From assembly GCA_029266035.1 (NCBI GenBank), contig JAJUFH010000024.1:1-45514 (forward strand): a DNA stretch of 45,514 nucleotides, written 5' to 3'. The translations under genes and the position numbers were made by a program. The notes below the pieces were generated by a model, which had not been told where the DNA came from, did no database searches, and worked only from the letters and a program-made list of their open reading frames with translations. This document shows positions 2,305 through 45,249 of this stretch, one piece after another (the stretch's first letter is position 1; every line of letters starts with the position of its first letter). Source of the DNA: Sinomicrobium sp. (GTDB taxonomy: Bacteria > Bacteroidota > Bacteroidia > Flavobacteriales > Flavobacteriaceae).

Positions 2305-3606
2305 TTAATCTTCGGAGACCTTAGGGTCGTTCAGTTTCCCTACCGACTTAGCCACTACAGTAGCTACGGCGGCATCACCGGTAATATTAATGGTAGTTCT
2401 GCACATATCCAATATACGATCTACCGACAGTATCAACGCAATACCCACAGGAAGTTTTTCCGGAGGAAAATTGATGGATTGCAACACGATAATAAGCATA
2501 ATCATTCCCACTCCCGGTACACCAGCAGTACCAATAGACGCCAGTAATGCTGTAAATACTATGGTCAGCTGATCGCCAAAAGTGATGTCAAAATGCAGGG
2601 CTTCGCAAATAAAGATGGTAGCCACGGCTTGGTAAAGACTGGTACCGTCCATGTTTATAGTAGCCCCTACGGGAAGTACAAAGCTACTCACCTCTTCATC
2701 CACACCTATATGTTCGTGTACCCTTTCCATATTTACCGGAAGGGCCGCTGCACTCGAACTGGTGGAAAAAGCGAGAAGTTGTACAGGACTCATCTTTTTC
2801 AAAAACCAGATGGGGTTCTTTTTAGCATACAGGCTTACCATAAGCATATACACCACCACCATCAATGCCAAACCGGCAAGTACTGTAAACGAATACTTGA
2901 GTAGTGCCAGCAATACATCTACGTCGTCGGTGCCTACCACCACATTGGCGAGCAGGGCAAATACAGCAATAGGTGCTATTTTGATAATCAGATCTACCAT
3001 TTTCAACACCGCATCGTTAAGACTGTCGAAAAAGCGCTTAAGAGGAGCTGCCTTCTCATCCCCTATAATCAACAGGCTAATCCCGAGCAGCATCGTAAAG
3101 AAGATGACTTGCAGCATTTGGTTGTTGTCTCCCAAAGCCGAAAAAATATTATCCGGCACTATACTCACAAGGTATTCTACAAAGTTGGTGTCTTGAGCTT
3201 CACTGTCGCTTATCCTTTGGCTTACTATACTAGTGGTCTCCGCATCGCTAGTAAGCTGTGCGATAGTCTCTTCTGATATTCCAGAGCCCGGTTTTACTAT
3301 ATTGGCAATAGTTAAACCTATCACTATGGCACAGGTTGTAGTAAAGATGTACAACGCCATAGTGCGTATCCCAATACTAGACAGCTTGGAGATATCTTGC
3401 ATATCGCAAATCCCCTTGATAAGTGAAGCTACTATAAGTGGGATGGCTATCAGTTTCAACAAATTGATAAACAACTCACCAAAAGGATAAATCCAGTTTT
3501 CTATAAAGGGTTTTCCCCAATCAAAATTTGCTAAGAGGGCACCAAACACACCTCCTAAAACCATTCCTATAATAATCTGCCAATGTAGTGCTAATTTAAT
3601 TTTCAT
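2305..3606 (-). CDS. Dicarboxylate/amino acid:cation symporter (DAACS family, glutamate/aspartate type)
   Basis: Inner-membrane secondary transporter of 433 residues with the GltPh/GltT layout. It has a serine-rich hairpin tip (STSSSAAALP, 281-290), the NMDGT motif at 318-322 and the substrate segment DMCRTTIN at 400-407. D400, R403, T404 and N407 align with GltPh D394, R397, T398 and N401. The arginine pairs with the side-chain carboxylate in glutamate/aspartate carriers and is replaced in neutral amino-acid relatives, so glutamate or aspartate is the expected cargo. It is the last gene of the long minus-strand array and fits as the uptake step for glutamate released outside or in the periplasm. 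A hairpin (3643-3672) separates it from the S9 peptidase gene, so it may have its own promoter or depend on read-through. Confidence 0.93.
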   Translation of the reverse strand: MKIKLALHWQIIIGMVLGGVFGALLANFDWGKPFIENWIYPFGELFINLLKLIAIPLIVASLIKGICDMQDISKLSSIGIRTMALYIFTTTCAIVIGLTIANIVKPGSGISEETIAQLTSDAETTSIVSQRISDSEAQDTNFVEYLVSIVPDNIFSALGDNNQMLQVIFFTMLLGISLLIIGDEKAAPLKRFFDSLNDAVLKMVDLIIKIAPIAVFALLANVVVGTDDVDVLLALLKYSFTVLAGLALMVVVYMLMVSLYAKKNPIWFLKKMSPVQLLAFSTSSSAAALPVNMERVHEHIGVDEEVSSFVLPVGATINMDGTSLYQAVATIFICEALHFDITFGDQLTIVFTALLASIGTAGVPGVGMIMLIIVLQSINFPPEKLPVGIALILSVDRILDMCRTTINITGDAAVATVVAKSVGKLNDPKVSED

Positions 3607-3642
3607 GTTGTTTTGATATTGCTATTTATTCCAAAAACTTAC

Positions 3643-3672
3643 CCCTGCTTTTCCCATTTGTAAAAAGCAGGG
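3643..3672 (-). terminator. Hairpin between the S9 peptidase and symporter genes, possible terminator
   Basis: Perfect 10-base arms CCCTGCTTTT (3643-3652) and AAAAGCAGGG (3663-3672) with a 10-base loop. On the minus strand the stem is followed, after a short GGTAAG spacer, by five T residues, which is weaker than a classical U-tract. Confidence 0.5.
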
Positions 3673-3704
3673 ATAAGCGGAATTCCACAAAGATAATATT
3701 ATCT

Positions 3705-5771
3705 TTATTTCTTTAACTGCTTGTTAAAAAAATCTACAGTCGCCTTACTTATTTTTAACAAATTTTCATGTCGCATCCAGTGGTGAGTGTCGTTGGGAAT
3801 AATCAGGCTTTCGAAATATACTCCTTTTCTTTTCAGTCGCTGCGAGAGATCTACACTGTGTGAAAACCCTACATTGCGGTCTTCATCGGCGTGAATCAAG
3901 AGCACCGGAGAAGTCCAGTCTTTCACATATGCATTGGGAGAAGACTTCCAAGAAACGCGATCTACGAGTTCTTTATCGGGTGTACTTTTATAAACAGATT
4001 TCGGCACCCTGTTATGCACTCCGTGTATGTCTACTCCGGCAGCAAACAAATCTGAATTTTTACCGAGAGCCAGTGCGGTCAGGTATCCACCATAAGACCC
4101 ACCATAAACTCCTATTTTTTTAGCATCTACGTCTTTTTGTTCCGCCAACCACTCTCCTGCAGCCTGTATATCCTGATATTCGGATGCTCCGTATCTACCG
4201 GCTTTTTTAGGGTTGTCGAAGTCGTAACCATATCCTATACCGAGCCTGTAGTTTACAGAGAGTACCACATAACCTTGATTTGCCAGATACTGGTTTAGGG
4301 CATAGGTGTGTGCGTAATACCCGCGATGATCCCAAGCCAGGAACATCTGTCGCGAAGGTCCGCCATGTATAAACAGTATAGCAGGTTTTTTACCACTGCT
4401 GTTTTTACTTTTAAACAACTGCCCGTGTACCTTTGTCCCATCTTTAGATATGATAATTACCTGCTCTGGTGTCACCATCTTGTCCTGAGGCAGTGTAGCT
4501 GGTATATTTTCGGCAGCTATAAGCGTTATTTTGCCGTCTTTTAAATATGCAGGCACTGCAGGACGGCTGGTGGTTGAGCTCAGGAAGGCAACGGTATTCT
4601 CCAGAAAAACCGGACTTGATTCCACACCCTCTCCTTCGGTCAGGAGAGTCATATCGGCCTTGTTTACAGATACTATACCGATATGCCTTCTATCTATATC
4701 TTTCTCATCTTTACCGGTATTTGTACTAAATATCAGCTTATCTCCTTTTGCATTCAGGCTCACCTCTTCTACCATAAAATTTCCGGGAGTGAGCAATAGC
4801 TCTTTCCCTCCACTTGCAGGCACCGAGTACAAATGTTGTCTGCCGTCTAAATAAGATCGGAATACTATACTGTTGTTGGCTGCCCACTGTATTGAGTTTC
4901 CTACAGCATTTTTAAACCCAGCTTTACGTGTTTTTGGAGCCTTCCAAATCACCTTAGACCCTTCCCCGGAAAGATCGGCAACCCTCAGTTCCCAAACATA
5001 GGAGCTGTACTTCAACTTCACATTCCCCGGTCTTCGTACAAAGACCAGCGATTTGCCGTCGGGAGACCATTTGGGGAACATATCTCTTGAAAAATCGGGA
5101 GAAACCCACTTGAGCGAACGCGCCCCAAATTCGTATACCCCGATAAAAGAATGCGTCCCTCTGTGGGAAGTAAATGCTATTTTTTTACCGTCTGGCGACC
5201 AGCTCAAATGCCTTACATTTCCGTTATCTGCAAAGAGTTTTCTCGCCTCTCCACTGCCATCGATATTCACTACCCATCTTTCGCCCAATTTAGTAAAGAC
5301 AACCTTGTCGCTATTGGGTGACACTGAGATAAAGCTTCCTCTTTCCGACAGTAGCTTTGGCTCACCTCCGGCAAAAGGCACGCTCCACACCTGTACTGCA
5401 GCTCCATCTACATCGGAGGTCGCATTTACCGGTTGCGAGCCCGACCAGTTACCCCCGTGGTCTCCACCTCTTACGTATACCACCCATTTTCCGTCGTTGG
5501 AAATAGATAGTTGAGTGATTTCCTGCCCGTCGTCTTCGAGATAGGGAGTCAATCGCCTCGGCTTAAAATCGGGTGCTTCAGCCACATATACATTTCGCTT
5601 CCCTTCTTCGTTGAAAGTCCAAGCGAGCTTGTTGTTACTACTAGTCAGGTTTCCCGGCTCCGGATAGCTCAAAAAAGCATCTAGGTCAGTCTGCCCAAAC
5701 AGGCAGCTTATTCCCATAAACAGGAATACGCTAAAGAGCATCTGCCTTAGGTGTAAACTGTGATTGTTCAT
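3705..5771 (-). CDS. S9 family peptidase (prolyl oligopeptidase / acylaminoacyl peptidase-like), secreted
   Basis: Serine peptidase of 688 residues. A signal peptide (hydrophobic run ending near SCLFGQ) precedes a TolB-like beta-propeller (about 40-400) with repeated SPDGK motifs, then an alpha/beta-hydrolase domain. The catalytic triad is visible: S559 in GGSYGGY, an aspartate in HADEDRNVG (about 631) and a histidine in NDTHHW (about 663). Members of this family cut short peptides or remove N-acylated residues, with the propeller limiting substrate size. It follows the transhydrogenase genes by about 57 bases in the same direction. A role in trimming small peptides from the locus substrate is inferred; the exact specificity cannot be read from sequence. 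Confidence 0.9.
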   Translation of the reverse strand: MNNHSLHLRQMLFSVFLFMGISCLFGQTDLDAFLSYPEPGNLTSSNNKLAWTFNEEGKRNVYVAEAPDFKPRRLTPYLEDDGQEITQLSISNDGKWVVYVRGGDHGGNWSGSQPVNATSDVDGAAVQVWSVPFAGGEPKLLSERGSFISVSPNSDKVVFTKLGERWVVNIDGSGEARKLFADNGNVRHLSWSPDGKKIAFTSHRGTHSFIGVYEFGARSLKWVSPDFSRDMFPKWSPDGKSLVFVRRPGNVKLKYSSYVWELRVADLSGEGSKVIWKAPKTRKAGFKNAVGNSIQWAANNSIVFRSYLDGRQHLYSVPASGGKELLLTPGNFMVEEVSLNAKGDKLIFSTNTGKDEKDIDRRHIGIVSVNKADMTLLTEGEGVESSPVFLENTVAFLSSTTSRPAVPAYLKDGKITLIAAENIPATLPQDKMVTPEQVIIISKDGTKVHGQLFKSKNSSGKKPAILFIHGGPSRQMFLAWDHRGYYAHTYALNQYLANQGYVVLSVNYRLGIGYGYDFDNPKKAGRYGASEYQDIQAAGEWLAEQKDVDAKKIGVYGGSYGGYLTALALGKNSDLFAAGVDIHGVHNRVPKSVYKSTPDKELVDRVSWKSSPNAYVKDWTSPVLLIHADEDRNVGFSHSVDLSQRLKRKGVYFESLIIPNDTHHWMRHENLLKISKATVDFFNKQLKK

Positions 5772-5828: not shown

Positions 5829-7217
5829 TTAAATCAACTTGAGCTGATTTATAATATTCTGGAGGGAATCTTTGGCATCTCCAAACAGCAGGCTACAGTT
5901 GTCCATACCAAAAAGATCATTGGAGACCCCTGCATAGCCCTTACTCATTCCTCTTTTCATAACCACTACCTGTTTGCTTTGATAAGCTTTTACAATTGGC
6001 ATCCCGAATATCGGACTGTCGGGGTTATTTTCTGCAGCCGGATTTACCACGTCGTTTGCCCCGATAATCAGCACTGTATCGTAATGAGCCATATCGCTAT
6101 TTACCTCGTCCATTTCTTTCAGGTGCTCGTAATCTATATTAGCTTCTGCCAGCAAGACGTTCATATGTCCGGGCATTCGTCCAGCAACGGGGTGAATGAT
6201 AAAATCTACTTGGGTCTCTCTCTTTGCCAGCAATTGCTGCAATTGTCCGCAGAGGTGTTGTGCTTGCGCCACTGCTAGTCCATAACCAGGAATTATGGCT
6301 ATCTTACTGGCAAAAGACAGCTGCATGGCAGTTTCGGAAACAGTGATTTCCTTGATATTTTGAACTTCGGTATCGGCGCTTGCCTTAGTCTTTTTAAACT
6401 TCCCTGCAAGTACTTTTATCAGAGATCTGTTCATCGCCTTACACATCAAGAGGGTAAGCAAAATACCCGCTGCACCTACAAATATACCCCCTGAAATCAT
6501 CGCCTTGTTTCCGTAAACAAAACCTGCAAGCGCTGTAGCTATACCGGTTATAGAGTTTAAGAGTGAGATTACCACCGGCATATCGGCACCGCCTATAGGT
6601 AGAACAAATACCACCCCGTATACCAGAGCGATAATCGCCAACGCGTAGGCAGTAGACTCAAAAGAAATAGGTAACAGCCCTACAAAATACAGAAGGGGTA
6701 ACAACAAAATAAGCCCTAAGAGTATTCTAGAACCGAATACAACGGCAGCTCCTTTGTTGTCTTTGGTTTTCCCTGCGAGTTTGCCGTAAGCTATCGCACT
6801 CCCGGAAGCGGCAACAGCCCCGGTAACCAATCCTAAGAGCAATAAGAGTTGCATTCCGATGTTCGGATCGCCTATTCCCTGTTGTTTGGCTTCTACAACG
6901 CCCAGTAACACGGCACATCCACCTCCGGCACCGTTAAACAGCGATATCAATTGCGGCATAGCAGTCATTTCCACCTTGTCGGCCATCAACTTCCCTATCA
7001 CAGTTCCCAGTACAATGGCCACAGCAATAACGATGATATTTGTGGTCGGTACGGTTTGTGTTTTAAGGGCGATAAACGTACATAAAACAGCGAGTATCAT
7101 TCCTATAGCTGCCACGCTATTACCCAGTCTAGCACTCTTTGGAGAACTCATAAACTTCAATCCACCCAAAAAGGAAACAGTGGCTATCAAATAGCCTACA
7201 TCAACTAATACGTTCAT
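5829..7217 (-). CDS. pntB: Proton-translocating NAD(P) transhydrogenase, beta subunit
   Basis: Membrane subunit of 462 residues. Residues 1 to about 265 hold the transmembrane helices of the proton channel (domain II). Residues about 285-462 form the NADP(H)-binding domain III, recognisable by IIPGYGLAVAQAQ, HPVAGRMPGHMNVLLAEA, GANDVVNPAAE and KRGMSKGYAGV. With the two alpha-type subunits upstream it couples hydride transfer between NADH and NADP+ to proton flow. The three genes are almost contiguous (6 and 2 bases apart), in the split arrangement seen in many bacteria. In this locus it may supply NADPH during growth on amino acids, where glutamate dehydrogenase is the main source of reducing power; that link is inference. 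Confidence 0.95.
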   Translation of the reverse strand: MNVLVDVGYLIATVSFLGGLKFMSSPKSARLGNSVAAIGMILAVLCTFIALKTQTVPTTNIIVIAVAIVLGTVIGKLMADKVEMTAMPQLISLFNGAGGGCAVLLGVVEAKQQGIGDPNIGMQLLLLLGLVTGAVAASGSAIAYGKLAGKTKDNKGAAVVFGSRILLGLILLLPLLYFVGLLPISFESTAYALAIIALVYGVVFVLPIGGADMPVVISLLNSITGIATALAGFVYGNKAMISGGIFVGAAGILLTLLMCKAMNRSLIKVLAGKFKKTKASADTEVQNIKEITVSETAMQLSFASKIAIIPGYGLAVAQAQHLCGQLQQLLAKRETQVDFIIHPVAGRMPGHMNVLLAEANIDYEHLKEMDEVNSDMAHYDTVLIIGANDVVNPAAENNPDSPIFGMPIVKAYQSKQVVVMKRGMSKGYAGVSNDLFGMDNCSLLFGDAKDSLQNIINQLKLI

Positions 7218-7223
7218 CCTTGC

Positions 7224-7520
7224 CTATTTTTTGGTATTGAACATTTTTAACATTCTTCCGGTGACAAAAAAGCCTCCGGAAATATTCAGTGCACCGAAAA
7301 ATACGGCAATTCCGCCCAAAGCGAGAGTGACGTAATTGGTGGGAGGAACCTGAGATATCATAATCACAGCACCTACCATGATGATTCCGCTAATCGCATT
7401 AGCTCCCGACATCAAGGGAGTGTGAAGAATAGCCGGAACATTGGCGATTACTTCTATACCGATAAAGACACAAAAGATCACAAAATATATGATCTCAAGA
7501 TTATTGTGGATAAATTCCAT
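7224..7520 (-). CDS. pntAB: NAD(P) transhydrogenase, small membrane alpha subunit (PntAB type)
   Basis: Protein of 98 residues with about three transmembrane helices, the size and character of the separate C-terminal part of the alpha subunit (the Rhodospirillum PntAB type). Motifs such as HTPLMSGANAISGI and GGFFVTGRMLKMF are typical. It completes the channel with PntB. It starts 2 bases after the pntAA stop and ends 6 bases before pntB, so the three are surely cotranscribed. Confidence 0.94.
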   Translation of the reverse strand: MEFIHNNLEIIYFVIFCVFIGIEVIANVPAILHTPLMSGANAISGIIMVGAVIMISQVPPTNYVTLALGGIAVFFGALNISGGFFVTGRMLKMFNTKK

Positions 7521-7522: not shown

Positions 7523-8638
7523 TTAAACACGTTCTGGTTTGTCAGTTAATAAAGGGTTAGTTATAACTCCGTTGCCAATCACCCTGCTCTTATCCAATAA
7601 GAGGTCTTCTTCTTTGGTCGATTGAACTAGGTATTTCAAAAAGTTAAAATAATTGGCAGACAGTAACTGTGAGGCGGCTTGCGACACCTCTCTCGCCAAA
7701 TGCGAATCGCCTACCACGGTCAATTCGTTGTAGGTAATTGTTTTTCCGGCTTCAGTCACCTCGCAATTTCCTCCCTGTTCGGCGGCCATATCTACAATCA
7801 CCGATCCGGGATTCATAGCATCAACGGTTGCCTTTGCGAGTAACAAGGGGGCTTTTTTTCCCGGAATATTTGCGGTACAAATCACAATATTGGCATTGCG
7901 TGCGCGATCGTGAATGAGTTCCTTTTGCTTTTTCAAGAACTCTTCAGATTGTGCAATGGCATATCCACCTGCATCTTTTGCCTCCTGCGCTCCTTCTACC
8001 TCAACAAATTTAGCTCCGAGACTTCTCACCTCTTCTTTGGTAGACGACCTGACATCGAAGGCCTCTACTACAGCACCCAGTCTTCTTGCGGTTGCTATAG
8101 CCTGCAAGCCTGCTACACCTGCCCCTAACACCAGTACTTTGGCCGGGGTAAGTGTTCCGGCCGCAGTGGTAAACATAGGGAAGGAGTTTTCGTAATAACC
8201 CGCCGCCTTGAGTACTGCCCTATAACCAGCAATAGATGCCATAGACGATAATACGTCCATTGATTGTGCCAGAGTAGTACGGGGCAACAGATCTAAGCTG
8301 TATACCGTTGTATTTTTACCGAGATACTTTTCGGTTCGCTCGGGGTAAAACAACATATTGAATATCCCGATCAATACTCGCTGCTCTTCACCAGGAGTAA
8401 AGCCTTCAATCTCGTTAATAGTCAAAAGTGTATCTGCAGTACTTAAAACCTCCGCTCGAGATTGCATTTTAACTCCTGCATCTACATAGGCACTATCCGA
8501 GATTCCCAAATGCTTCGCATAGCCTTCTTCTATCAAGACCTCCAGCGACAATTGCTTAATAAGGAGTGAAGCTTCTTTGGGTAAAAGACATACCCTAGTT
8601 TCAAATTCCGGTTCCTTTACCAGTCCTATAGTTTTCAC
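7523..8638 (-). CDS. pntAA: NAD(P) transhydrogenase, soluble NAD(H)-binding alpha subunit (PntAA type)
   Basis: Cytoplasmic domain I subunit of 371 residues related to alanine dehydrogenase. The N-terminus reads TIGLVKEPEFETRVCLLP; the dinucleotide fold carries VLVLGAGVAGLQAIATARRLGA and the later GSVIVDMAAEQGGN segment. It binds NAD(H) and passes hydride to domain III of PntB. It is the first gene of the pnt group; the preceding D-aminoacylase gene ends 87 bases upstream. That gap holds a small hairpin but no convincing terminator, so pnt could still be read from the upstream genes. Confidence 0.95.
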   Translation of the reverse strand: MKTIGLVKEPEFETRVCLLPKEASLLIKQLSLEVLIEEGYAKHLGISDSAYVDAGVKMQSRAEVLSTADTLLTINEIEGFTPGEEQRVLIGIFNMLFYPERTEKYLGKNTTVYSLDLLPRTTLAQSMDVLSSMASIAGYRAVLKAAGYYENSFPMFTTAAGTLTPAKVLVLGAGVAGLQAIATARRLGAVVEAFDVRSSTKEEVRSLGAKFVEVEGAQEAKDAGGYAIAQSEEFLKKQKELIHDRARNANIVICTANIPGKKAPLLLAKATVDAMNPGSVIVDMAAEQGGNCEVTEAGKTITYNELTVVGDSHLAREVSQAASQLLSANYFNFLKYLVQSTKEEDLLLDKSRVIGNGVITNPLLTDKPERV

Positions 8639-8725: not shown

Positions 8726-10309
8726 CTACTTTTCGTTTAATTTCAGTGCTTTTCCGGGTAAATTGCCCTGCCATTGGCCGTCTTTTATAACCAGTTTCCC
8801 GTTTACAATAACATAAGGAACTCCTGAGGCGAGCACTTCTCCGTTGTCGTAGTTGCTGTTGTCTTTGATGGTGTTGGGATCAAACAATACAACATCGGCA
8901 TAATACCCTTCCTCTATGGCTCCCCTGTCTTTTATATTCAGTGTTTTTGCCGTGAGATAAGACGATTTGTAAATGGCTTGAGAAACAGACAACACTTTGT
9001 CGTCTAAGGCGTATTTTCTGATTTTTCTGGCAAAGGTTCCAAAGCCTCTAGGGTGGCCACTACCTCCGTCAGAGCCTGTCATCACCCAGGGTTGAACCAT
9101 AAAGTTGTTGATATCTTCGTCTTTCATCATAAACGAATGTACCGAAGGCAGACTGGTAGAACACACTTTAATCACCACTTCTTCGGGCGATATATTCCAC
9201 TGTTCAGACAGATCTTGAAGCGATTTTCCGTGTAATTCCTTATTTTTTTTACTGGCCAAAACCAACTTAGAAGGATCGGCAGTTCTCGCCTCGATATTTT
9301 TGGCAATTCCTTTTAGTATGGAATCTCTCAACTCCGGTTGTAGAAATCTTGCTCGCATGGCCTTAATCCCCCCGTCTCTTACCCAGGGTGGCACCAAGGC
9401 CGAGCTAAGTCCGGTTCTCGACGCCTCATAAGGATACTGATTGGCAGTTACTTTAAGTCCTTTGGCCTGCGCTTTCTCGATCATATCGATCAATACATCA
9501 CTTTTACCCCAGGTTTTTGGCCCAGACACTTTGATATGCGAAATATGGGCGGGAATTCCGGCCTCTTCAGCTATTTTCAACACCTCTTCGGTAGAGGCTA
9601 CCACCCCTATGCTTTGCGAACCCTCATCTCGTTGGTGGGTGTCGTAGATACCACCGTGTGAAGCTGCCACCTTAGCAAGGGCCACAACCTCATCCAGCTC
9701 TGCGTAGTTCCCGGGAGTGTAGAAAAGTCCTGTAGAAAGTCCGAATGCTCCTTCCTTCATCGCGCGATCTACCATATTTTCCATGGTCTTTAATTCGTTT
9801 GCTGTAGGCTGTACATCTTCATCACCCAGCACATTTCGCCTTACAGTATTATGCCCAACAAACAATGCGGCATTGGGGCCTATCCCGGTTTCTTTCCATT
9901 TGTGCAGGGTTTCCCCTATAGGCCAAGGGCTACCTCCGTCGTTACCTTCAAAAACGGTAGTTACTCCTTGCATTAGTGCTCGGAGAAGCGCGCGTTCTTT
10001 CTCATCCTTGTTATTTAGCTGACGTTTGTAATGTGTGTGCGGATCGATAAATCCCGGCGATAAGTATAGCCCAGTACCGTCGATAAGTGTTTTAGCTTTA
10101 AACGATTTCGTCGGCTCGCCGACATAAACAATGCGTTCTCCTTTTATCCCTACATCATACAGTACCGAATCTTTTCCGGTACCGTCGAAGACATAGGCTC
10201 CCTTGATCAGGATATCAAGCTTTTTAGGTTTGTTGTCTTGAGCCCGTACCGACAGCGACAGCAGACAGACTGCCATCGATGCCAATAAGTGCATGGTAAT
10301 ACGTTTCAT
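8726..10309 (-). CDS. N-acyl-D-amino-acid deacylase (D-aminoacylase family), secreted, copy 1
   Basis: Amidohydrolase-superfamily enzyme of 527 residues with a signal peptide ending near VRAQ. Family features are IDPHTH (metal pair H91/H93), HISHIKVSGPKTWG, NQYPYEASRTG and GSDGGSGHPR (late metal aspartate). Relatives release D-amino acids from N-acyl-D-amino acids, including N-acyl-D-glutamate. An odd point is that the position usually occupied by the metal-binding cysteine of GNCG is aspartate here (GNDGG, D124). The second copy at 27226 shares the change, so it is not a sequencing error. Export suggests action on periplasmic D-amino-acid amides. The gene follows an FGase-like gene, with four 13-bp repeats in the leader. 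Family is sure; substrate is inferred. Confidence 0.9.
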   Translation of the reverse strand: MKRITMHLLASMAVCLLSLSVRAQDNKPKKLDILIKGAYVFDGTGKDSVLYDVGIKGERIVYVGEPTKSFKAKTLIDGTGLYLSPGFIDPHTHYKRQLNNKDEKERALLRALMQGVTTVFEGNDGGSPWPIGETLHKWKETGIGPNAALFVGHNTVRRNVLGDEDVQPTANELKTMENMVDRAMKEGAFGLSTGLFYTPGNYAELDEVVALAKVAASHGGIYDTHQRDEGSQSIGVVASTEEVLKIAEEAGIPAHISHIKVSGPKTWGKSDVLIDMIEKAQAKGLKVTANQYPYEASRTGLSSALVPPWVRDGGIKAMRARFLQPELRDSILKGIAKNIEARTADPSKLVLASKKNKELHGKSLQDLSEQWNISPEEVVIKVCSTSLPSVHSFMMKDEDINNFMVQPWVMTGSDGGSGHPRGFGTFARKIRKYALDDKVLSVSQAIYKSSYLTAKTLNIKDRGAIEEGYYADVVLFDPNTIKDNSNYDNGEVLASGVPYVIVNGKLVIKDGQWQGNLPGKALKLNEK

Positions 10310-10456: not shown

Positions 10457-11407
10457 TTACAACTTCAGCTTTTCTACAAAATCGAAATAAGCTTTGGCCA
10501 CAGATTCAGCAAATATAGTAGTATTTGCTCGTGAATCCCTAGCTTTTCTATAATGCATTTCTATTTGAAACCCAAATACATTAGGATTGTCGGCCGAGGT
10601 GTACCTTCTGGTGTTGTATCCTCCGTTAAAAAAAGCCTCTCCCGCCACCGGATGAGGGTCTTGTTTGGCCGGGGTAGCAGGAACACCTTGGTTGTTTACT
10701 AAAGTTCCAAAGGCATTTTCACCAAAGAGCAACTCCCAGATATCTGCATCGGGGTTCTTTTTTAGGTAATTTGCCATAGAAGATTTAGCGGCATATTTTT
10801 CGAGATCTTCTTTTTTATAGGCCTTTTCCAAATCCTTTCTCCCGAGAGAATATCCGAGCTCTAAGCGCTGATTGAGGTGGCCGTGCCCATGCAAATCGAT
10901 ATAGAGGGCGTAACCGAATTGCTTTTCGGCGTGATCTAAAGCAGCATCGGCGGCATCGTGAAAGTTATACCATGCCTCCTCTCCCTTGGGATCTCCACAA
11001 ACATATTTAAGCGCCCTGTTTTGGTCTACCTTACGGCGAGCCACGTGATTGATAACCATATAGGGCCGCTTATTGTATTTTTTCACAAAAGCATCCTGAA
11101 TATAATGGGCTACTTCTACGGTATAGCTGTCAGTTCCTCTTACGATCCGCCCTGCATTATCCTTACAAGTACGGTCGGCCATTCCCTTGGGTCTTTTTGT
11201 ACCTCCGTGTGGAACCGTGATAACCAGCGGAATGTCTCCTACTATAACCTCTGTCCATTCCCCATCGTCGAAGTGAACCTCTCCCACTACCCACTTGGAA
11301 GTGTCCAAATTCATAGTACTCTTCTGCGCCCGAACGGTTGTTAAACTCAACAGGCCTATCATCAACATCAGTATCGATCCGATTTTTATATGCTGTAATG
11401 TTTTCAT
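10457..11407 (-). CDS. N-formylglutamate amidohydrolase-like metallohydrolase, secreted (module copy A)
   Basis: Protein of 316 residues with a signal peptide ending near TVRAQ. The rest resembles the FGase family, related to zinc carboxypeptidases and to the fold class of the phage poly-gamma-glutamate hydrolase PghP. Key residues are H67 in VPHGG, D93/E98 in TDSYTVEVA, the RRKVDQNR segment (R125-R131), H173 in YIDLHGHGH and E283 in GFQIEMH. These are conserved in four of the five other paralogues here, which supports metal binding and catalysis. No other histidine-utilisation gene is present, so a HutG role is unlikely. The export signal points to hydrolysis of a periplasmic glutamyl substrate. 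It ends the four-gene module 10457-15707. Confidence 0.82.
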   Translation of the reverse strand: MKTLQHIKIGSILMLMIGLLSLTTVRAQKSTMNLDTSKWVVGEVHFDDGEWTEVIVGDIPLVITVPHGGTKRPKGMADRTCKDNAGRIVRGTDSYTVEVAHYIQDAFVKKYNKRPYMVINHVARRKVDQNRALKYVCGDPKGEEAWYNFHDAADAALDHAEKQFGYALYIDLHGHGHLNQRLELGYSLGRKDLEKAYKKEDLEKYAAKSSMANYLKKNPDADIWELLFGENAFGTLVNNQGVPATPAKQDPHPVAGEAFFNGGYNTRRYTSADNPNVFGFQIEMHYRKARDSRANTTIFAESVAKAYFDFVEKLKL

Positions 11408-19251: not shown

Positions 19252-19294
19252 CATTTCAGTTTGTTGGTTGTATTCTGTGGATGCCGAACCGTAG

Positions 19295-19315: not shown

Positions 19316-19342
19316 GTACTGCAACGCCTGTACATCCAAAAT

Positions 19343-28824: not shown

Positions 28825-28834
28825 CCAATTGTTT

Positions 28835-33805: not shown

Positions 33806-33866
33806 TAGTAAAAATGTTTTATACAATCTGGTATTATTATTTCTGTTGATCACCGTTGGTTTTATC

Positions 33867-34681: not shown

Positions 34682-34733
34682 ACTTCCCCTTTCACTTTTT
34701 ACACATTTCATACTTTGACTTTTTTAGTTTGCC

Positions 34734-36618: not shown

Positions 36619-36664
36619 CTTCTGGTTTTTTAAGTTTTGGTCCTTTCCTATCTTCAATAAGAAT

Positions 36665-38290: not shown

Positions 38291-39712
38291 TTAGTATCCT
38301 CTGTTTTGCTGTAAAGCAGCATTGGCATTAATTTCTCTCCACGGAATTATAGACAGTATTCTGTAATCGCTCCACAAGAAAGTAGTTCCATTGGGTTTTT
38401 CGATATCCTGTCCCAGCCTTTTATAGTCAAACCAGCTATGCCCTTCGAAAGCGAGTTCCAATTTTCGCTGTTTTGCAATTTCGTCAAGCAAAAGTTCTTC
38501 AACAAGTCCTGTAACAGGAGTAAGTCCAGCTCTCTCCCTAATCAGATTGACATCAGCTATGGCTTCGGCTTCCATTCCACCAACTTTGGCGTAAGCTTCG
38601 GCTCTGTTTAGATATACTTCCGAAAGGCGTATTACCGGAACATTGTCTAAGTTGGGTGCCCCACCACGGCTAAAGAATTTAGTCATCTCGTTCGCATCAG
38701 AAGCGGTACCTAGTCCTTTCATAATAAGCTGCTTGCGCACATCGTCATCTTCGTATAGCTCAAACAACTGATCGCTTACCACAGCATCTCCATTTCCGTT
38801 TTGTACAGTTCCTTCTTCATTCACTCTAGTGGTAAAGGCCGAACGAATAGAGTTGGTAATACCAATGTTCTGGTCTACCTTAAACTCTACTTCAAAAAGA
38901 GATTCCGGATGAGTTTCAGCTCTCCAGTCTGAGATATAACTGTCATGCGTTGAAAAACGAGCTACTCCAGACTCTATAGCCTTATCGGCCCACTCAATTA
39001 CTGTAGGATAATCTCCGTTGTATAGTGCTACTCTGGTCATCAATGCCGCAGCGCCACCGCTGGTGGCAAAGTGAGGCCCGGCACTGGTAGGAGTGCCTTG
39101 TAAAAGCTCGTAAGCTTTTTCCAGATCTTCATACAATTGAGCGTACATCTCTTCTTGAGTGGCCCTTGGTGTAGGCACAATTTCAGAATAGGTCTTGATA
39201 CTGGTCAAAACCAACGGTACAGTACCTCTATTAGTTGCCCCTATAGCGGTAGGATCGTAACCATAAATACGAGCTAAGTTGTGGTAGTACAGTGCTCTTA
39301 GAAAATAGAGCTGTCCGGCTATACCGTCTTTCCACTCCTGGCTACCCTCAAAATCTTCAAGAGCTTCCAGTATTTCGTTGGCAGCAGTAATGGCTTCATA
39401 GGCCAATTGCCAACCTCCCATATGAGTACCTCTGGCGTTGTTGGCTACTGTTTGGTTATTAGACCTCCTACCAGAATGGGCAGCCGTATTTCCCATCAGC
39501 TCAGGGTAAACGATATATTGTCTACCGTAAAGACTGGTACTTCTCAGCTGAGAATAACAACCCACCGTAGCAGCTTCTATAGATTCTACAGAACTCAAGG
39601 CGGTCTCAGAATCTACAGAAAGCATAGGGTCTGTTTCCAGCAGTGATTCACACGAAGTCAGGAAAAGTGAAAAGATCCCGACAAACGCTATTGTTTTAAA
39701 TGAACATGTCAT
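38291..39712 (-). CDS. susD: SusD/RagB-type outer-membrane substrate-binding lipoprotein
   Basis: Protein of 473 residues, the usual size for the family. C20 in SLFLTSC is lipidated. Typical features are an N-terminal TPR-like helical part (LYYHNLARIYGYDP), an EEMYAQLYEDLEKAYELL segment and the C-terminal LNRAEAYAKVGGMEAEAI plus ELAFEGHSWFDYKRLG motifs. It forms the lid on the SusC channel and binds the ligand at the surface. It starts 21 bases after susC stops. The family is mostly linked to glycans but also includes the RagB peptide-binding protein, which is the better model here because the locus lacks glycan enzymes. Confidence 0.95.
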   Translation of the reverse strand: MTCSFKTIAFVGIFSLFLTSCESLLETDPMLSVDSETALSSVESIEAATVGCYSQLRSTSLYGRQYIVYPELMGNTAAHSGRRSNNQTVANNARGTHMGGWQLAYEAITAANEILEALEDFEGSQEWKDGIAGQLYFLRALYYHNLARIYGYDPTAIGATNRGTVPLVLTSIKTYSEIVPTPRATQEEMYAQLYEDLEKAYELLQGTPTSAGPHFATSGGAAALMTRVALYNGDYPTVIEWADKAIESGVARFSTHDSYISDWRAETHPESLFEVEFKVDQNIGITNSIRSAFTTRVNEEGTVQNGNGDAVVSDQLFELYEDDDVRKQLIMKGLGTASDANEMTKFFSRGGAPNLDNVPVIRLSEVYLNRAEAYAKVGGMEAEAIADVNLIRERAGLTPVTGLVEELLLDEIAKQRKLELAFEGHSWFDYKRLGQDIEKPNGTTFLWSDYRILSIIPWREINANAALQQNRGY

Positions 39713-39733: not shown

Positions 39734-42700
39734 TTAAAAAGAGAGATCTACACCGAATATAAAGTTCCTCGTCTGCGGTATCTGACCGGTATTTGAGGTA
39801 AAGTTACTATCCTCTATATAGAACTCTGGGTCTAATCCTGTCCACTTAGTCCAAGTAATCAGGTTGGTAGCTGTAGCATAGATACTAAGAGAGCTAAGCC
39901 CTTTTATCATATACTTTTTAGGCAGGTTGTATTTCAACATCACCTGTTTAAGTCTGATATACGACGCATCTTCCAGGAATCTGTTTGAAGATCTGTAATG
40001 ACTTTGAGAAAGCTCTTCTATACCACCGTCGATAAATCTCGGGAAGGCAGTAATTTGCCCTGGCTCTCTCCAGGTCTGTTCGTAAGCTCTAAGCGAAGAG
40101 TTTGCCTGCTGTGAACCATTCCGATAAATTCTGGTATTGGTGCTGTTGTACAACTCCCTACCCATATCGTATTGGAAGAAGATATCCAAGGTAAAGTCTT
40201 TATAGGTAAAGGTATTGCTCAGCCCTCCCCAATAATCAGAGAGACGGCTTCCTCTTCCATGAGGGGTATAACTACCTCCACCCTGTGCACCGGGAGCATA
40301 AGAGATTCTGTCTACTCCAGACCACCACATAGGCTTACCGGTAGCTGCGTTGACCCCGGCATATTGGTGACGGAAGTTGGTTTGCAACGGCCATCCTACT
40401 CTAATACCTGGAGCACCGGGAAGAGACACTACAGCCTCTGTTAATTGCTCTCCTGTTTCATCTTCAGACTCCACCACTCCTTCGTAGAGCTTAGTTACTT
40501 CATTTTCTAAGAAGGCGATATTGAAATTGGCACTCCATTTGAAATTCTTAGTATTTATAATATCAGAATTCAAATCGATTTCCAAACCTTCGTTTTTAAC
40601 TTCTCCTACGTTTCTGTAGATGCTTGCAAAACCACTGTGCCAAGCCAAAGGAGTCTGAATCAAGAGGTCTTTACTCAACCTTCGGTATACATCTATAGAA
40701 CCGTACAGTATCTTTTTACGCAGTGTAAAATCGAGTCCTAAGTTATAACTCACGTTTCTTTCCCAACGCAAGTCGTCGTTTGCCAATTGTGTTTTTACAG
40801 TTCCAGGCAAACCTCCGTACGAACCACTGCCGTCCCACAAAGCTCTACTAGCAAAGTCTCCAATCGAGCTGTTACCAGTTTCCCCGTAACTTGCACGGAA
40901 TTTTAATTGGTTGATGATGTTTTGCCCATCCATAAAGTTTTCTCTCGCCACATCCCATCCGGCAGAGATAGAAGGAAATAATCCGTAGCGGTTATCTGCA
41001 CCAAACCTAGAAGAACCGTCGTAGCGCAATACTGCACTCAACATATATTTCTTTCTGTAGTTGTAGTTCACCTGACTAAATACACCAGCTCTTTTATTAT
41101 CAGTTCCGTTTTCGTAGGCATTCAATATCGTTGAAGCTGAAGACATATAGCGGAATTGATAGGTAGGAAATCCTTCTGAACTGGCTCCTACTCTTTGTCT
41201 GTGATAGCTTCTGTACTCCGCACCTAATAAGGCATTTAACTGATGACCTCCGGTAAAATCGGTATTGTAGGTCAAAGTAGTAGAGTTGGTAAAAATGGTA
41301 GAGTTTTGGTAACGGAAAGATTTATACCCAGCTCTGTTACCTCCTTCTTGTGAACGAGGATCTATATAAAACTCGGTATCGTAGTTTCTGTAGTTCAGAC
41401 CAAACCTAGACTGAAACTGCAGCTTATCACTTATTTTATACGTAAGTCGGAACACGCCAAAAAGGGTACGGGTTCTAGCGAGCTGCGTATTGTATTCCGC
41501 TGCTTGAATGGCGTTGTAAGGGTGATCGCCCGGCAAACGAGGCGGAGCATTCCAAGAGCCATCCTCATTTTTAAAAGGTATAAAAGGCGCTATAAGCGGA
41601 GCCATATACTGAGGAGATGAGTGGTAAGCATAGGAACCGTAAGAACGATATCCCGCATTACGAGTCACCTGACTCAAAGAAGTGCTCAACCACAAATTCA
41701 ACTTATCGTTGACATCGTGATTAAGCCTTACATAAAGTGATCCCCTTGTAAAGTCGTTGGGAGCAATAGCAGCTTCAGCTTTCTCATAAGAACCGGATAC
41801 TCGGAACTTGGTTCGATCTGATCCTCCAGTCATAGCTACATTTACCTTGTCGGAAAATGCAGGCTTAAAAGCTTCTGCCTGCCAATCGTAAGTAGGCAGG
41901 GCTGCAATTTGAGCATCGGTAAGGTTAAGCGGCAACAAACTCTGACGCAACACTTCACTACGCGCCTGCTCATAAGTCCAGCTAGGATTTAGATTGGCAA
42001 CAGCCTCCATACGACCGTGCAGATATTGCTGCGTGTTTTGCATCTCCAGAAATTCGAGAGGTGTCACCACTCCTTTTTTATAACCTACGGTAAATCTTGT
42101 AGGCCCAGATTTTGCACTTTTGGTAGTAATAAGTATTACCCCATTTGCCGCCTGAGCTCCGTAGATAGAAGCGGCAGCAGCATCTTTCAGTACTTCAATA
42201 GATTCGATATCGTTGGGATCCATAAAGTCGAGCGGGTTGGATGCCGAAACGTTATTCGCAGAGTCTTCAGAGTTAACTTCCACACCGTCCACAATATAAA
42301 GAGGGGAGTTTCCAGCACTTATAGAACCTTGTCCCCTAACCATAACACTCATTGGCCCTCCGGGAACACCAGAAGCACTTTGAATTAAAACCCCTGCAAC
42401 TCGACCTTGCATAGCCTGGTCGAAAGACTGTACAGGTATATTTTGAATAACTTCAGATTTCAATGAAGACATCGCTCCTGTAATGGTTCTTTTTTCTTGA
42501 ACCTGATATCCGGTAAGTACAACCTCATCCAATTCAGTTGCAGCTTCTCTCATCGTGATGTTCAAGGGGCTGGAATCTTTCACAGTAACCTCTTGATCGA
42601 GCATTCCGAGATAGGTAAAAACGAGAACATCACCCTGAGCGGCGTCGATACTAAAGTTACCGTCAAAATCGGTCACTACACCTTTGGTAGTACCTTTAAT

Positions 42701-43162
42701 CAAAACACTTACTCCGGGTAGAGGACCTCCATCGAGATCTTTTACAGTTCCTCTTATTTCAGACTGAACTGCACTAACAGAAGAAAGATCGTCGTTTTTT
42801 GACATGGAAACGACAATCTGTTTGTTGACAATTTTAAAGGCATAATCCGGACTCAATACTTCCCGAAGGATTTCGACTACCGATTTATTTTTGGCATTGA
42901 TAGACACTTTGCGATTGCTGTGCTCTACCATATCGGTATAAAAGAACACATAGTCTGTCTTGCTTTCTATGTTCTCAAAAACCTCTTTCAGATCGGCATT
43001 CCGAACTTCAATATCAATTTTTGTTTGTGAACGGGAGTCTTCTGCATACACACTACTCAATCCGAAACAAACACATAAAACAAAGATTCTGATCATGTGC
43101 CATAATAATCTTTCTACGCTTTTTTTAAAGGGATAAAAAAAGGACAATAGTAATTTATTCAT
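39734..43162 (-). CDS. susC: SusC/RagA-type TonB-dependent transporter with an N-terminal STN domain
   Basis: Outer-membrane importer of 1142 residues. After the signal peptide (ends near SSVYAE) comes an STN signalling domain (about 52-118), a carboxypeptidase-regulatory-like domain (about 130-205, IRGTVKDLDGGPLPGVSVLIK as core), the plug (about 212-340, with MVRGQGSISAGNSPLYIVDG) and the barrel ending in FIFGVDLSF. The STN domain couples substrate transport to the FecR/sigma pair upstream, so the locus should be induced by its own substrate. By analogy with RagAB, peptide or polyamide import is feasible. A hairpin lies in the 146-base gap after fecR. Confidence 0.96.
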   Translation of the reverse strand: MNKLLLSFFYPFKKSVERLLWHMIRIFVLCVCFGLSSVYAEDSRSQTKIDIEVRNADLKEVFENIESKTDYVFFYTDMVEHSNRKVSINAKNKSVVEILREVLSPDYAFKIVNKQIVVSMSKNDDLSSVSAVQSEIRGTVKDLDGGPLPGVSVLIKGTTKGVVTDFDGNFSIDAAQGDVLVFTYLGMLDQEVTVKDSSPLNITMREAATELDEVVLTGYQVQEKRTITGAMSSLKSEVIQNIPVQSFDQAMQGRVAGVLIQSASGVPGGPMSVMVRGQGSISAGNSPLYIVDGVEVNSEDSANNVSASNPLDFMDPNDIESIEVLKDAAAASIYGAQAANGVILITTKSAKSGPTRFTVGYKKGVVTPLEFLEMQNTQQYLHGRMEAVANLNPSWTYEQARSEVLRQSLLPLNLTDAQIAALPTYDWQAEAFKPAFSDKVNVAMTGGSDRTKFRVSGSYEKAEAAIAPNDFTRGSLYVRLNHDVNDKLNLWLSTSLSQVTRNAGYRSYGSYAYHSSPQYMAPLIAPFIPFKNEDGSWNAPPRLPGDHPYNAIQAAEYNTQLARTRTLFGVFRLTYKISDKLQFQSRFGLNYRNYDTEFYIDPRSQEGGNRAGYKSFRYQNSTIFTNSTTLTYNTDFTGGHQLNALLGAEYRSYHRQRVGASSEGFPTYQFRYMSSASTILNAYENGTDNKRAGVFSQVNYNYRKKYMLSAVLRYDGSSRFGADNRYGLFPSISAGWDVARENFMDGQNIINQLKFRASYGETGNSSIGDFASRALWDGSGSYGGLPGTVKTQLANDDLRWERNVSYNLGLDFTLRKKILYGSIDVYRRLSKDLLIQTPLAWHSGFASIYRNVGEVKNEGLEIDLNSDIINTKNFKWSANFNIAFLENEVTKLYEGVVESEDETGEQLTEAVVSLPGAPGIRVGWPLQTNFRHQYAGVNAATGKPMWWSGVDRISYAPGAQGGGSYTPHGRGSRLSDYWGGLSNTFTYKDFTLDIFFQYDMGRELYNSTNTRIYRNGSQQANSSLRAYEQTWREPGQITAFPRFIDGGIEELSQSHYRSSNRFLEDASYIRLKQVMLKYNLPKKYMIKGLSSLSIYATATNLITWTKWTGLDPEFYIEDSNFTSNTGQIPQTRNFIFGVDLSF

Positions 43163-43247: not shown

Positions 43248-43308
43248 GATTTACCCTGAAGTCTAATCTTTCATACTTTTCCCATACTTTAGTTTTAATT
43301 GTTATTTG

Positions 43309-44580
43309 TCAGTTAGTTAGTAATATTTTACCCCCCTCTCTCTCATAACTGAAATAGAGTGGATCTTTTATCAAATCGAGTACATCCTCTACAGAAGGCT
43401 GCATATTGAGACGTCCGGAATAGGTCGTTACATTTTGAAAATCCCCATCCAATTCAATCTCCACTCCGTAGTAATCGGACAATACTTTCGAAATTTCTTT
43501 CACATTCTCATTTTCAAACACGAAAATCCCCTTCCTCCAGGTCATATAAGTTTCGGCATCCACATCCATTCTCGTCACCTCTTCACTTCCCTTATCCAAC
43601 ATCACAAGTGTATTGGGCTTTATCCGAACATTCTTGGAGGCTTTAGGATAATCGACTTCCACACTTCCTGTTTTCAACACAGTTCGAGAAAAATTTTCTT
43701 TGGGATAAGCTCGAACGTCGAAAACCGTACCCAATACTTTCACCACCTGATCCGGACTCAATACATAAAAAGGTTTCTTTGCGTCGTGAGATACATCAAA
43801 AATAGCCTGCCCCTCGAGGTAGACTTCCCTTCTGTTTTTTGAAAATCGAGAAGGATACATCAATGTAGACCCTGCATTGAGCCAAACCCTAGTTCCATCT
43901 GCCAATCTCACGGTAGAACGTTTACCGTAAGGCACTATCACGGTGTTGTAATCACTTTCACCTTCCACTTCCTGATGTACCGCCTTGCGCTCGTTAATAT
44001 CGATGCGCTCTCCCGACTCCGAATAGGAGATTACAGGAGCTTCTTCTTCTATAGCAATCTCTTCACCATCTACAACCAACTGCACACTCTTTTCGCGATA
44101 GGTAGGCTGCACATTCCCTTTGAGGTTGGAATACTTCTCCACAGAAGGCGGCATCTGAGCGGTGTAATCAAAAAATCTCAATCCCAACGCAACTACCAAA
44201 CAAGCCGCAAGACCATAAAGCACCTTCATCCTCCTTCTGCGTACTGCCCGGTATTGACCAAGCTTCGTGTCACCAGTTCCGTCATCCGGAGCAACACCCT
44301 CCTCTCTAAAGCCATCTATATCACCCCTTAACTCTATAACCCGACCTTCTCCAGAACGAATTTTTTTCATAATCGACTGAAACAAAGCCGCTCTCCTCTT
44401 ATTTCCTTTTGGAGTATAAGACAAGCCCGACAATTTGTGATGCAACCTCACATAGGTTTCAAATTCTTTTTTCGAAACCTTATCCGTCTTTAACAGCCGA
44501 TCTAACTTTAACATCTCCTCATCAGTAATCTCATTAGAGAAGAACCGACGTAATAAATATGACAAATAAGGGCGAGACAT
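43309..44580 (-). CDS. FecR-family anti-sigma factor
   Basis: Inner-membrane regulator of 423 residues. A cytoplasmic N-terminal anti-sigma region (LLRRFFSNEITDEEMLKLDRLL) is followed by a transmembrane helix near 119-136 (YGLAACLVVALGLRFF). The periplasmic part has a FecR domain (VPYGKRSTVRLADGTRVWLN, LEGQAIFDVSHDAKKPF, VLGTVFDVRAY) and a C-terminal domain of the type often called DUF4974 (GIFVFENENVKEISKVLSDYY, then LNMQPSVEDVLDLI). It should contact the STN domain of the SusC protein and control the divergent sigma factor. It lies directly upstream of susC. Confidence 0.95.
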   Translation of the reverse strand: MSRPYLSYLLRRFFSNEITDEEMLKLDRLLKTDKVSKKEFETYVRLHHKLSGLSYTPKGNKRRAALFQSIMKKIRSGEGRVIELRGDIDGFREEGVAPDDGTGDTKLGQYRAVRRRRMKVLYGLAACLVVALGLRFFDYTAQMPPSVEKYSNLKGNVQPTYREKSVQLVVDGEEIAIEEEAPVISYSESGERIDINERKAVHQEVEGESDYNTVIVPYGKRSTVRLADGTRVWLNAGSTLMYPSRFSKNRREVYLEGQAIFDVSHDAKKPFYVLSPDQVVKVLGTVFDVRAYPKENFSRTVLKTGSVEVDYPKASKNVRIKPNTLVMLDKGSEEVTRMDVDAETYMTWRKGIFVFENENVKEISKVLSDYYGVEIELDGDFQNVTTYSGRLNMQPSVEDVLDLIKDPLYFSYEREGGKILLTN

Positions 44581-44703
44581 TTTGCTTTTTTATATGTTTG
44601 TACCCTCAAGACGTAATTATTTCCGAAAACCCCTATTCGAAATTAATTTTTTTTCAATTTTTGCATATGAAAAGTTATCATAACTATTCATTCAGTTAAA
44701 AAA

Positions 44704-45249
44704 ATGAGATACTCACTCCAAAATAGCGTGGATTTAGTGAAGGATTTGCAATCTGGAGATGAAAGGGCTTTCGAGTATCTCTTTAATTCTCTATATGACG
44801 ATCTCACCTATTTTATTCTCGGTTTTTGTAATGATGTACAAACCGCAGAAGACATAGTGCAAGCAACCTTTATTCGCCTTTGGGAAAAAAAGGAGAGTAT
44901 TTCATTTCACACCTCCCTTAAAAGTTATATGTACAGCGCCTGCTACAATCAGTTTGTAGACCATTTCAGGAAAAACAAGAATATAACAAGCGTAGCCATC
45001 GACCTCTATCAGGAAATCCTCGTGTCGGAAGACGAAAATCAAGAGCATCGCGAGGCCATGCAACAAAAGTTAAAAAACGCCATCAACACCCTACCCGACA
45101 AATGCAAGGAAATAGTTATTCTTCACAAACTGAAAGGCTACAAATACCAAGAAATAGCCGAAATGCTGAATATTTCAAAAAAAACCGTCGAAAACCAATT
45201 GTGGAAAGCTTATAAGATATTGAGATCCTTTATAAATAGCAAAGACTAA
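44704..45249 (+). CDS. ECF sigma factor (RpoE-like, partner of the FecR protein)
   Basis: Sigma factor of 181 residues. Region 2 covers about 20-85 (AFEYLFNSLYDDLTYFI, then AEDIVQATFIRLWEKKES). Region 4 covers about 120-175 (LPDKCKEIVILHKLKGYKYQ, EIAEMLNISKKTVENQLWKA). It is divergent from fecR with a 123-base gap. This arrangement and the STN-bearing SusC define a trans-envelope signalling system, so the sigma factor probably drives susC and the genes after it. A TATGTTTG at 44593-44600 fits the -7 consensus about 100 bases before the ATG but lacks a partner box. Confidence 0.95.
   Translation: MRYSLQNSVDLVKDLQSGDERAFEYLFNSLYDDLTYFILGFCNDVQTAEDIVQATFIRLWEKKESISFHTSLKSYMYSACYNQFVDHFRKNKNITSVAIDLYQEILVSEDENQEHREAMQQKLKNAINTLPDKCKEIVILHKLKGYKYQEIAEMLNISKKTVENQLWKAYKILRSFINSKD

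Follow-up and report, generated by a model that had tools for sequence, protein, structure and literature searches.

The stretch analyzed here, called the window below, is one whole contig (C27, 45,514 bases) of a 3.05-Mb draft genome of Sinomicrobium sp., and it carries a SusCD-type locus whose substrate is probably a D-glutamate-containing amide or peptide of some kind. Its genes (g0 to g30) were checked by open reading frame (ORF) calling, Pfam, NCBIfam and alignments. Twenty-nine of them form one co-directional run on the minus strand, from 44580 to 2305, with intergenic gaps of -26 to 248 bp. On the plus strand, the run is flanked by an extracytoplasmic function (ECF) sigma factor on one side (g30, 44704..45249; Sigma70 r2/r4_2) and a GntR/MocR-type regulator on the other (g1, 781..2277; Pfam). 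An earlier note on this DNA had described the genes as lying on one strand, which is right for the 29 and not for these two. The run begins with a FecR-type anti-sigma gene (g29, 43309..44580; FecR, FecR_C), followed by adjacent genes with TonB-receptor and SusD domains: the SusC transporter g28 (39734..43162; Pfam and tree placements), which has a CarbopepD_reg domain, and the SusD lipoprotein g27 (38291..39712; SusD_RagB, SusD-like_3, lipobox pattern). The surface lipoproteins g26 (36665..38251) and g25 (34828..36657) come next, and then a long series of hydrolases. Adjacent SusC and SusD, together with a sigma/FecR regulator and co-directional secreted hydrolases (Pfam, gene spacing), identify a SusCD locus. 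These components had been named in the earlier note and were recovered by Pfam and lipobox searches; the STN domain that it ascribed to SusC is weak (24.6 bits vs a cut-off of 28.4).

SusCD loci are usually taken to be systems for eating sugars. Like the SusCD polysaccharide utilization loci (PULs) of Bacteroidota, the window joins ECF sigma/FecR, SusC/SusD, surface lipoproteins and secreted hydrolases in one run; unlike them, it has amide hydrolases, a racemase and an amino-acid symporter instead of glycan enzymes. As the earlier note had stated, no glycoside hydrolase, lyase or sulfatase, and no muramidase or NlpC/P60 protein, was matched by Pfam among 30 window proteins (a gdhA piece at the contig end was scanned by NCBIfam only). 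A strict definition of a PUL, which requires the locus to contain a glycoside hydrolase, lyase or sulfatase, therefore does not apply. The same 30 proteins include 14 active-looking amide-type hydrolases. A PHROGs comparison gave nothing useful.

Six genes encode relatives of N-formylglutamate amidohydrolase (FGase). Four pass the PF05013 cut-off of 28.9 bits: g7 (10457..11407; 44.9 bits), g11 (15807..16748; 52.1 bits), g18 (25521..27104; 50.9 bits), which is fused to a module described below, and g21 (30641..31633; 35.5 bits). The fifth, g23 (32846..33952), stays below it at 22.4 bits yet is 50% identical to g7, and the sixth, g22 (31882..32823), has no Pfam match at E 0.001. In an alignment of 21 FGase rows, which leaves out the partial L010 and in which residue roles are assigned by analogy, the PHGG-type His, the D-x-H His and the Q-x-E Glu are kept in 20 rows, including five of the six window copies. 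The sole row without all three is g22, which we read as an inactive relative because these conserved catalytic-type residues are gone. This agrees with the five FGase-like hydrolases and one inactive relative of the earlier note. A structural model of g7 (pLDDT 91.6) has N-formylglutamate amidohydrolases as best fold matches (2q7s, E 2e-6, and 2odf), followed by AmiA (E 4e-4) and CCP5; PghP, a hydrolase of poly-gamma-glutamate (gamma-PGA), was not among the 50 listed matches. According to the PghL paper, the FGase-type structures 2odf and 2q7s are the closest folds to PghL after PghP (PMC6506827).

The other hydrolases expected from the earlier note were likewise borne out by Pfam. Four DD-peptidase-fold hydrolases of PF00144, g9 (12115..13878), g10 (13944..15707), g13 (17485..19335) and g14 (19343..21130), score 192-215 bits and keep the S-x-x-K, Y-x-N and H-x-G motifs (S-x-x-K of g13 was read directly from the sequence). 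g20 (28835..30544) is a gamma-glutamyltransferase (GGT) by its domain (PF01019, 562 bits) and its N-terminal-nucleophile Thr (TTHFS at 382), and its best solved relative is the classical GGT 2e0w (526 bits). GGT of B. subtilis takes single units off the amino end of gamma-PGA (PMC4497714). A penicillin-amidase-type N-terminal-nucleophile (Ntn) hydrolase, g17 (23209..25461; Penicil_amidase, PF01804, 347 bits; GSNVW motif), resembles PvdQ at 173 bits (NCBIfam cut-off 950, not reached). The run also encodes an S9 peptidase with a signal-like start (g3, 3705..5771; Pfam 123 bits) and a glutamate/dicarboxylate symporter (g2, 2305..3606; SDF 420 bits), whose best NCBIfam match is GltP at 275 bits, below the cut-off of 638.

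Two D-aminoacylase-type amidohydrolases (Pfam, NCBIfam), g6 (8726..10309) and g19 (27226..28860), match Amidohydro_3 at 68 and 77 bits. g6 is nearest to D-aminoacylase (233 bits), followed by N-acyl-D-glutamate deacylase (200 bits) and the carbohydrate de-N-acetylase-type enzyme PpOngB (197 bits), with a near-level match also to a "carbohydrate de-N-acetylated protein". Because the latter scores are almost level across enzyme types, they settle no single substrate for g6. D-aminoacylases, FGases and penicillin acylase use N-acyl amino acids as substrates; from this general family knowledge, the locus could be a general scavenger of small peptides and free N-acyl amino acids without a dedicated polymer, and a small related locus (L096, below) would suit such a role. 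A large ligand is suggested instead by SusCD, the surface lipoproteins and a binding-like module in 13 copies, and we hold scavenging to be improbable.

The lipoprotein g15 (21127..22740, likely start 22704) bears out the exported glutamate racemase of the earlier note. It matches Asp_Glu_race (PF01177) at 35 bits (cut-off 31) and TIGR00067, in pieces, at 103.1 bits (curated cut-off 146.65, not reached). The signature of glutamate racemases, two catalytic Cys motifs and a DSG-GG motif, is complete in g15 (ACNTA, GCTHYP and FDSGTGG), the start fits the lipobox pattern, and solved relatives were found. The motifs FDSG-GG, ACNT and CTHY are those of MurI; the lipoprotein-type start and the length of about 500-540 aa with insertions are not, and g15 is a second copy, since an ordinary MurI lies on another contig of the genome (214.8 bits, over the cut-off). 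g15-type racemases occur in 8 of 395 phylum genomes, the source genome included (E 1e-35 or better, frames of 507-546 aa); in our large draws, genome counts are lower bounds because only up to 2 to 8 candidates were scored per genome. All ten relatives that were read have the three motifs, with a lipobox-type start by eye. Among the seven other genomes, one has the racemase within a SusCD locus (L096) and two have it near a BadF-type kinase, a major facilitator superfamily (MFS) permease and a GH3-PF00144 fusion, which is directly beside it in L102 and four ORFs off in L101. In a third it adjoins MFS and BadF genes (L099, at a contig end), and no BadF, MFS or GH3-PF00144 neighbour was seen beside it in L097, L098 and L100. 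The setting with MFS and BadF-type kinase, plus the fusion in L101/L102, looks like exported D-Glu recovery in wall recycling. As relatives occur both in SusCD and in wall-recycling-type settings, the g15-type enzyme seems linked to the recovery of D-Glu in a general way, the cell wall being one source.

A feature that the earlier note did not mention is a module of ~180 aa, present 13 times in ten window proteins. It stands alone in g8 (11456..12094), g12 (16800..17435) and the secreted g24 (34064..34711), forms the C-terminus of all four PF00144 hydrolases and the N-terminus of FGase g18, and occurs in three copies in g25 and in two copies in g26, next to a DUF4843-like N-terminus (29.5 bits, below the cut-off of 34.5). 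Searching with a single copy recovers all ten proteins (E 1.6e-17 or better), and in an alignment of 13 rows (A2) the others are 16-37% identical to the first. The g24 model (pLDDT 96.5) has the DUF4466 protein 4ei0 as best fold match (E 1.9e-5, TM 0.54, rmsd 8.1), and HmuY matches weakly (E 0.04). This likeness is one of fold, whereas the lone modules and g25 have no Pfam match and a comparison with PDB sequences gave no convincing match (best E 0.03, a signal peptidase). The genome holds 18 module matches in all, five of them outside the window; among these are L034, where an FGase carries two modules, and L035, where a module adjoins a D-aminoacylase. In the same genus, the module also occurs in PULs with a GH78-type rhamnosidase, sulfatases and GH127 (L037) or GH2/GH3 (L048), as a lone secreted protein or as part of a lipoprotein. 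Weak matches (E 6e-4 to 2e-15) were found in other settings in 7 other of the 395 genomes, one beside ABC-transporter and PEGA genes. A gamma-PGA-specific binder was therefore rejected; we read the module as a surface binding module of broad use and infer its binding.

The presence of the module in L037 and L048 also bears on the possibility of an ordinary glycan PUL with its glycan enzymes elsewhere. The D-aminoacylase family, which includes amino-sugar deacetylase-type enzymes, would fit this as well, and SusC g28 is about equally near the levan-transporting SusC homolog 5t3r (315 bits) and RagA (295 bits). Because these two scores are alike, SusC similarity gives no verdict on the substrate. 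The absence of any glycan enzyme against 14 active-looking amide-type hydrolases in 30 window proteins (other loci were partly scanned) makes a glycan substrate very improbable. RagAB of Porphyromonas gingivalis is a peptide-importing SusCD relative (PMC11817032). The window resembles it in having a SusCD architecture for a peptide-type substrate and differs in that it also holds a hydrolase set with D-glutamate handling.

The set of genes, or part of it, recurs in Sinomicrobium sp. N-1-3-6, two Parapedobacter, Rufibacter and two genomes of the Parapedobacter family, so that the search proposed in the earlier note did reach further genera. Gene calls in these loci are mechanical, with labels from phmmer comparisons to the window genes and a small number of further genes, and Pfam or NCBIfam scans covered part of them. 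Ten loci were reached through FGase similarity; four of these (in Parapedobacter composti, Parapedobacter SGR-10, Rufibacter ruber and Sinomicrobium N-1-3-6) join SusCD, modules, FGase and D-aminoacylase, while six do not within the DNA examined. Seven loci unite related SusCD with these three components: the window, L004, L001, L002, L003, L125 and L126. GGT is present in six of the seven and the g15-type racemase also in six, L001 having another amino acid racemase. L125 and L126 each hold three FGase-like genes (one weak), two D-aminoacylases, GGT, the g15-type racemase and six modules; L127 has D-aminoacylases and modules. Gene order in Sinomicrobium N-1-3-6 is nearly that of the window, and the GntR/MocR-type regulator adjoins the symporter there too. 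A small version in genome G273, L096, consists of SusCD, a short g26-like protein, PF00144, racemase and D-aminoacylase. This recurrence of gene order and content in other genera is more than chance. Because the lipoprotein glutamate racemase and D-aminoacylases recur among the loci, and L096 keeps them with PF00144 and SusCD, an amide-linked D-glutamate substrate is well supported; what the loci nearest the window share is that D-glutamate is set free from an amide-linked substrate and inverted, at the inner membrane or outside it. By eye, a dipeptide-epimerase-like gene lies ~29 kb downstream of susC in P. composti (L144:9141-10175).

A search of the Parapedobacter family with SusC alone gave 22 matches in 16 of 341 genomes, three already known and 19 new loci, with a racemase or epimerase in three of these (L125, L126 and L143) and D-aminoacylases in one more (L127). 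In two earlier trees, a glutamate-type inverting enzyme had appeared in all SusC loci of the window's clade (7/7, then 8/8; 0/11 outside), a pattern biased because FGase similarity had led to four of the eight loci and the racemase to one. It was not upheld in a larger SusC tree, which leaves out the partial L001 row. There, an inverting enzyme accompanies 8 of the 11 rows in the clade (support 92/98, not starred) and is missing for L127, L132 and L142, and L115 and L143 fall outside the clade. Other close SusC relatives, part of them inspected by eye, stand beside metallophosphatase-like or unrelated genes.

Three sister loci, L083 (Parapedobacter SGR-10), L115 (source genome, contig C13) and L143 (P. 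composti), combine SusCD with PF00144-type and enolase-superfamily-type enzymes. The latter is nearest to the N-acetyl-D-Glu racemase DgcA in L083 and L115 (210 and 214 bits, cut-off 400 not reached), then to L-Ala-D/L-Glu epimerase (142 and 141 bits); in L143 it was labelled by similarity to the L083 protein. L115 has two PF00144-type hydrolases beside it. This pairing speaks for a peptidoglycan stem peptide (L-Ala-gamma-D-Glu-DAP-D-Ala; DAP, diaminopimelate) freed by other organisms as the substrate, on which the PF00144 enzymes would act as DD-peptidases, the D-aminoacylases would split L-Ala-D-Glu and the racemase would salvage D-Glu. The wall-recycling-type neighbours of the racemase in L101, L102 and L099 are consistent with it, as are, in P. 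composti, genes for an S66 LD-carboxypeptidase and an M14 protein that lie a few genes further along, after an Amidohydro_1 gene, the top NCBIfam match of g9, AmpH (74 bits vs a cut-off of 266), and the match of the FGase model to the amidase AmiA. Set against this, no muramidase, amidase, NlpC/P60, LD-carboxypeptidase, alanine racemase or sugar-handling gene was matched in the window (Pfam), five FGases and a GGT would be atypical of wall-peptide use, and L115 in the same genome suits wall peptides better. The murein-peptide recycling gene set comprises AmpG, NagZ, LdcA and L-Ala-D/L-Glu epimerase. The window shares its D-Glu theme, and g15 relatives stand near such genes elsewhere; AmpG, NagZ, amidase, LdcA and Ala-Glu epimerase were all unmatched in the window, which is thus not a peptidoglycan-peptide recycling locus in this sense. 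The earlier note, which had named peptidoglycan as the main alternative, was right that the window shows no muramidase, NlpC/P60 or sugar-handling gene and underrated this explanation, given the racemase neighbours and the epimerase-like sister loci. We regard it as a serious but rather unlikely one.

Another D-Glu or iso-acidic peptide might also be the target, such as non-ribosomal (lipo)peptides, polyglutamylated compounds or cyanophycin-like amide polymers. The resemblance of g17 to PvdQ would suit this, and Parapedobacter SGR-10 adds a beta-aspartyl-peptidase-like enzyme with a signal-like start (L082; 319 bits, cut-off 567 not reached). L142 (6093-9773), a related SusCD locus, encodes an S9 enzyme that matches g3 at 611 bits and a protein resembling cyanophycinase (57 bits to 7uqv); it may serve a cyanophycin-like polymer. 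Finally, L068 (L068:5999-15170) has SusCD beside FGase, M81 (MlrC-like) and PF00144 enzymes, a content that we take to be reminiscent of microcystin-type D-peptide breakdown. However, each of the beta-aspartyl, cyanophycinase-like and M81 genes was seen in a single one of the loci compared, and glutamate would be the main product to judge by the glutamate racemase and the symporter, so that such a peptide seems unlikely.

Our best single guess for the substrate is gamma-PGA, made tentatively and at somewhat less than even odds. It is favoured because the FGases are multiplied, GGT is present and glutamate alone is provided for by the racemase and symporter, and because another SusCD locus in the genome, L115, looks fit for wall peptides. 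Parapedobacter SGR-10 likewise has such a separate locus with PF00144-type and epimerase-like enzymes (L083); these loci could take care of wall peptides, so that a different substrate would fall to the locus in the window. Put in full, with a rough probability of 0.35, we propose a dedicated Bacteroidota SusCD locus for gamma-PGA in which racemization of D-Glu by a lipoprotein enzyme takes place outside the cytoplasm and amide hydrolases carry a new DUF4466-like module that holds the polymer. What the sequence shows is gene content, recurrence, export signals and catalytic motifs; the steps that follow are modelled on these. The surface lipoproteins g25/g26 and the module-bearing hydrolases would hold the polymer, which FGase-type metallo-hydrolases, PF00144, S9 and Ntn enzymes would cut outside the cell or in the periplasm, with SusC/SusD bringing oligomers in. 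GGT would then trim from the amino end, D-aminoacylases may release D-Glu from N-acyl-D-Glu ends (gamma-glutamyl-D-Glu being one such), and the lipoprotein racemase would convert D-Glu to L-Glu for uptake by the GltP-like symporter.

Several observations weigh against gamma-PGA. No PF05908 (PghP-type gamma-PGA hydrolase) was found in the genome, the B. subtilis control being positive. The locus has more hydrolase kinds than a homopolymer needs, one of its enzyme families, the D-aminoacylases, extends to amino-sugar deacetylases, and the beta-aspartyl-peptidase-like gene of Parapedobacter SGR-10 lies outside the scheme. L096 has no FGase, GGT or module, and 15 of the 19 new SusC-found loci are without racemase, epimerase and D-aminoacylase. 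In apparently one draw of 395 genomes, the FGase subfamily was found in 13, the g15-type racemase in 8 and the module in 8, the source genome counted, and only the source genome has more than one of the three together. In Sinomicrobium sp. N-1-3-6, the closest relative seen, the corresponding place has neither gdhA nor PntAB, and the racemase relatives near wall-recycling-type genes, like the epimerase-like sister loci, strengthen the peptidoglycan alternative. Thus the reading of the earlier note, gamma-PGA or a related D-Glu polymer, holds in part: the non-glycan content stands, and so does the D-glutamate theme, with which the exported second racemase, the D-aminoacylases and the glutamate-type symporter agree, whereas gamma-PGA, or a polymer of any kind, is a conjecture.

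Compared with the known gamma-PGA enzymes of bacilli and phages, PghP/PghL (PF05908), PgdS and GGT, as described in PMC4497714 and PMC6506827, the window has GGT in common, and the folds next closest to PghL are FGase-type structures; it differs by the missing PF05908, by FGases that keep a D-x-N-R motif and by the lack of an NlpC/P60 match. Among the matches listed from the open-licence literature, no description of a SusCD locus for gamma-PGA was found. Flavobacterium polyglutamicum is said to degrade gamma-glutamyl polymers; the literature found names this organism only for pterin deaminase. If our proposal is true, a recurring SusCD locus with amide hydrolases, racemase and symporter would widen the role of SusCD to D-amino-acid polymers, and give a genetic handle on the natural recycling of gamma-PGA or wall D-Glu. 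Both the repeated module and the family of lipoprotein glutamate racemases can be tested in their own right.

FGase, GGT-like and AstE/AspA-like genes also occur together in genomes G156, G093 and G243, without a relative of the window's SusC, an independent setting that speaks for the gamma-PGA reading. A MurI-like racemase lies within ~14 kb in G156 and G093, in both cases below the TIGR00067 cut-off, and a pattern search did not find the exact second Cys motif in the G093 protein. Clusters of FGase, GGT-like, AstE/AspA-like and DUF6305-like genes were seen in L073/L074, L075/L076 and L078, partly with a MurI-like racemase and a DctM-like transporter; some neighbours carry a Por_Secre_tail domain of the type IX secretion system (T9SS).

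The remaining genes of the window concern redox metabolism and an orphan. The transhydrogenase genes pntAB (5829-8638) lie between D-aminoacylase and S9 genes and comprise PntAa (g5, 7523..8638; AlaDh_PNT 201 bits), a 98-aa membrane ORF in the PntAb place (7224..7520), named by place only, and PntB (g4, 5829..7217; PNTB 531 bits). Alanine dehydrogenase was rejected for g5 (PntA 323 vs alanine dehydrogenase 90 in NCBIfam). A glutamate dehydrogenase fragment, g0 (1..630, minus strand; NCBIfam), is truncated by the contig end. The transhydrogenase, the symporter and gdhA beyond the regulator are thus present as the earlier note had them, and the value of gdhA and PntAB as pointers to the substrate is weakened: the matching place in Sinomicrobium N-1-3-6 is without pntAB, and after the regulator that genome has, instead of gdhA, a racemase-like gene of another type. 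Glutamate dehydrogenase and transhydrogenase were therefore rejected as core parts of the locus. The 131-aa orphan g16 (22730..23125), between racemase and acylase, is DUF6876-like below the Pfam cut-off; at its place, Sinomicrobium N-1-3-6 has a PF00144 gene.

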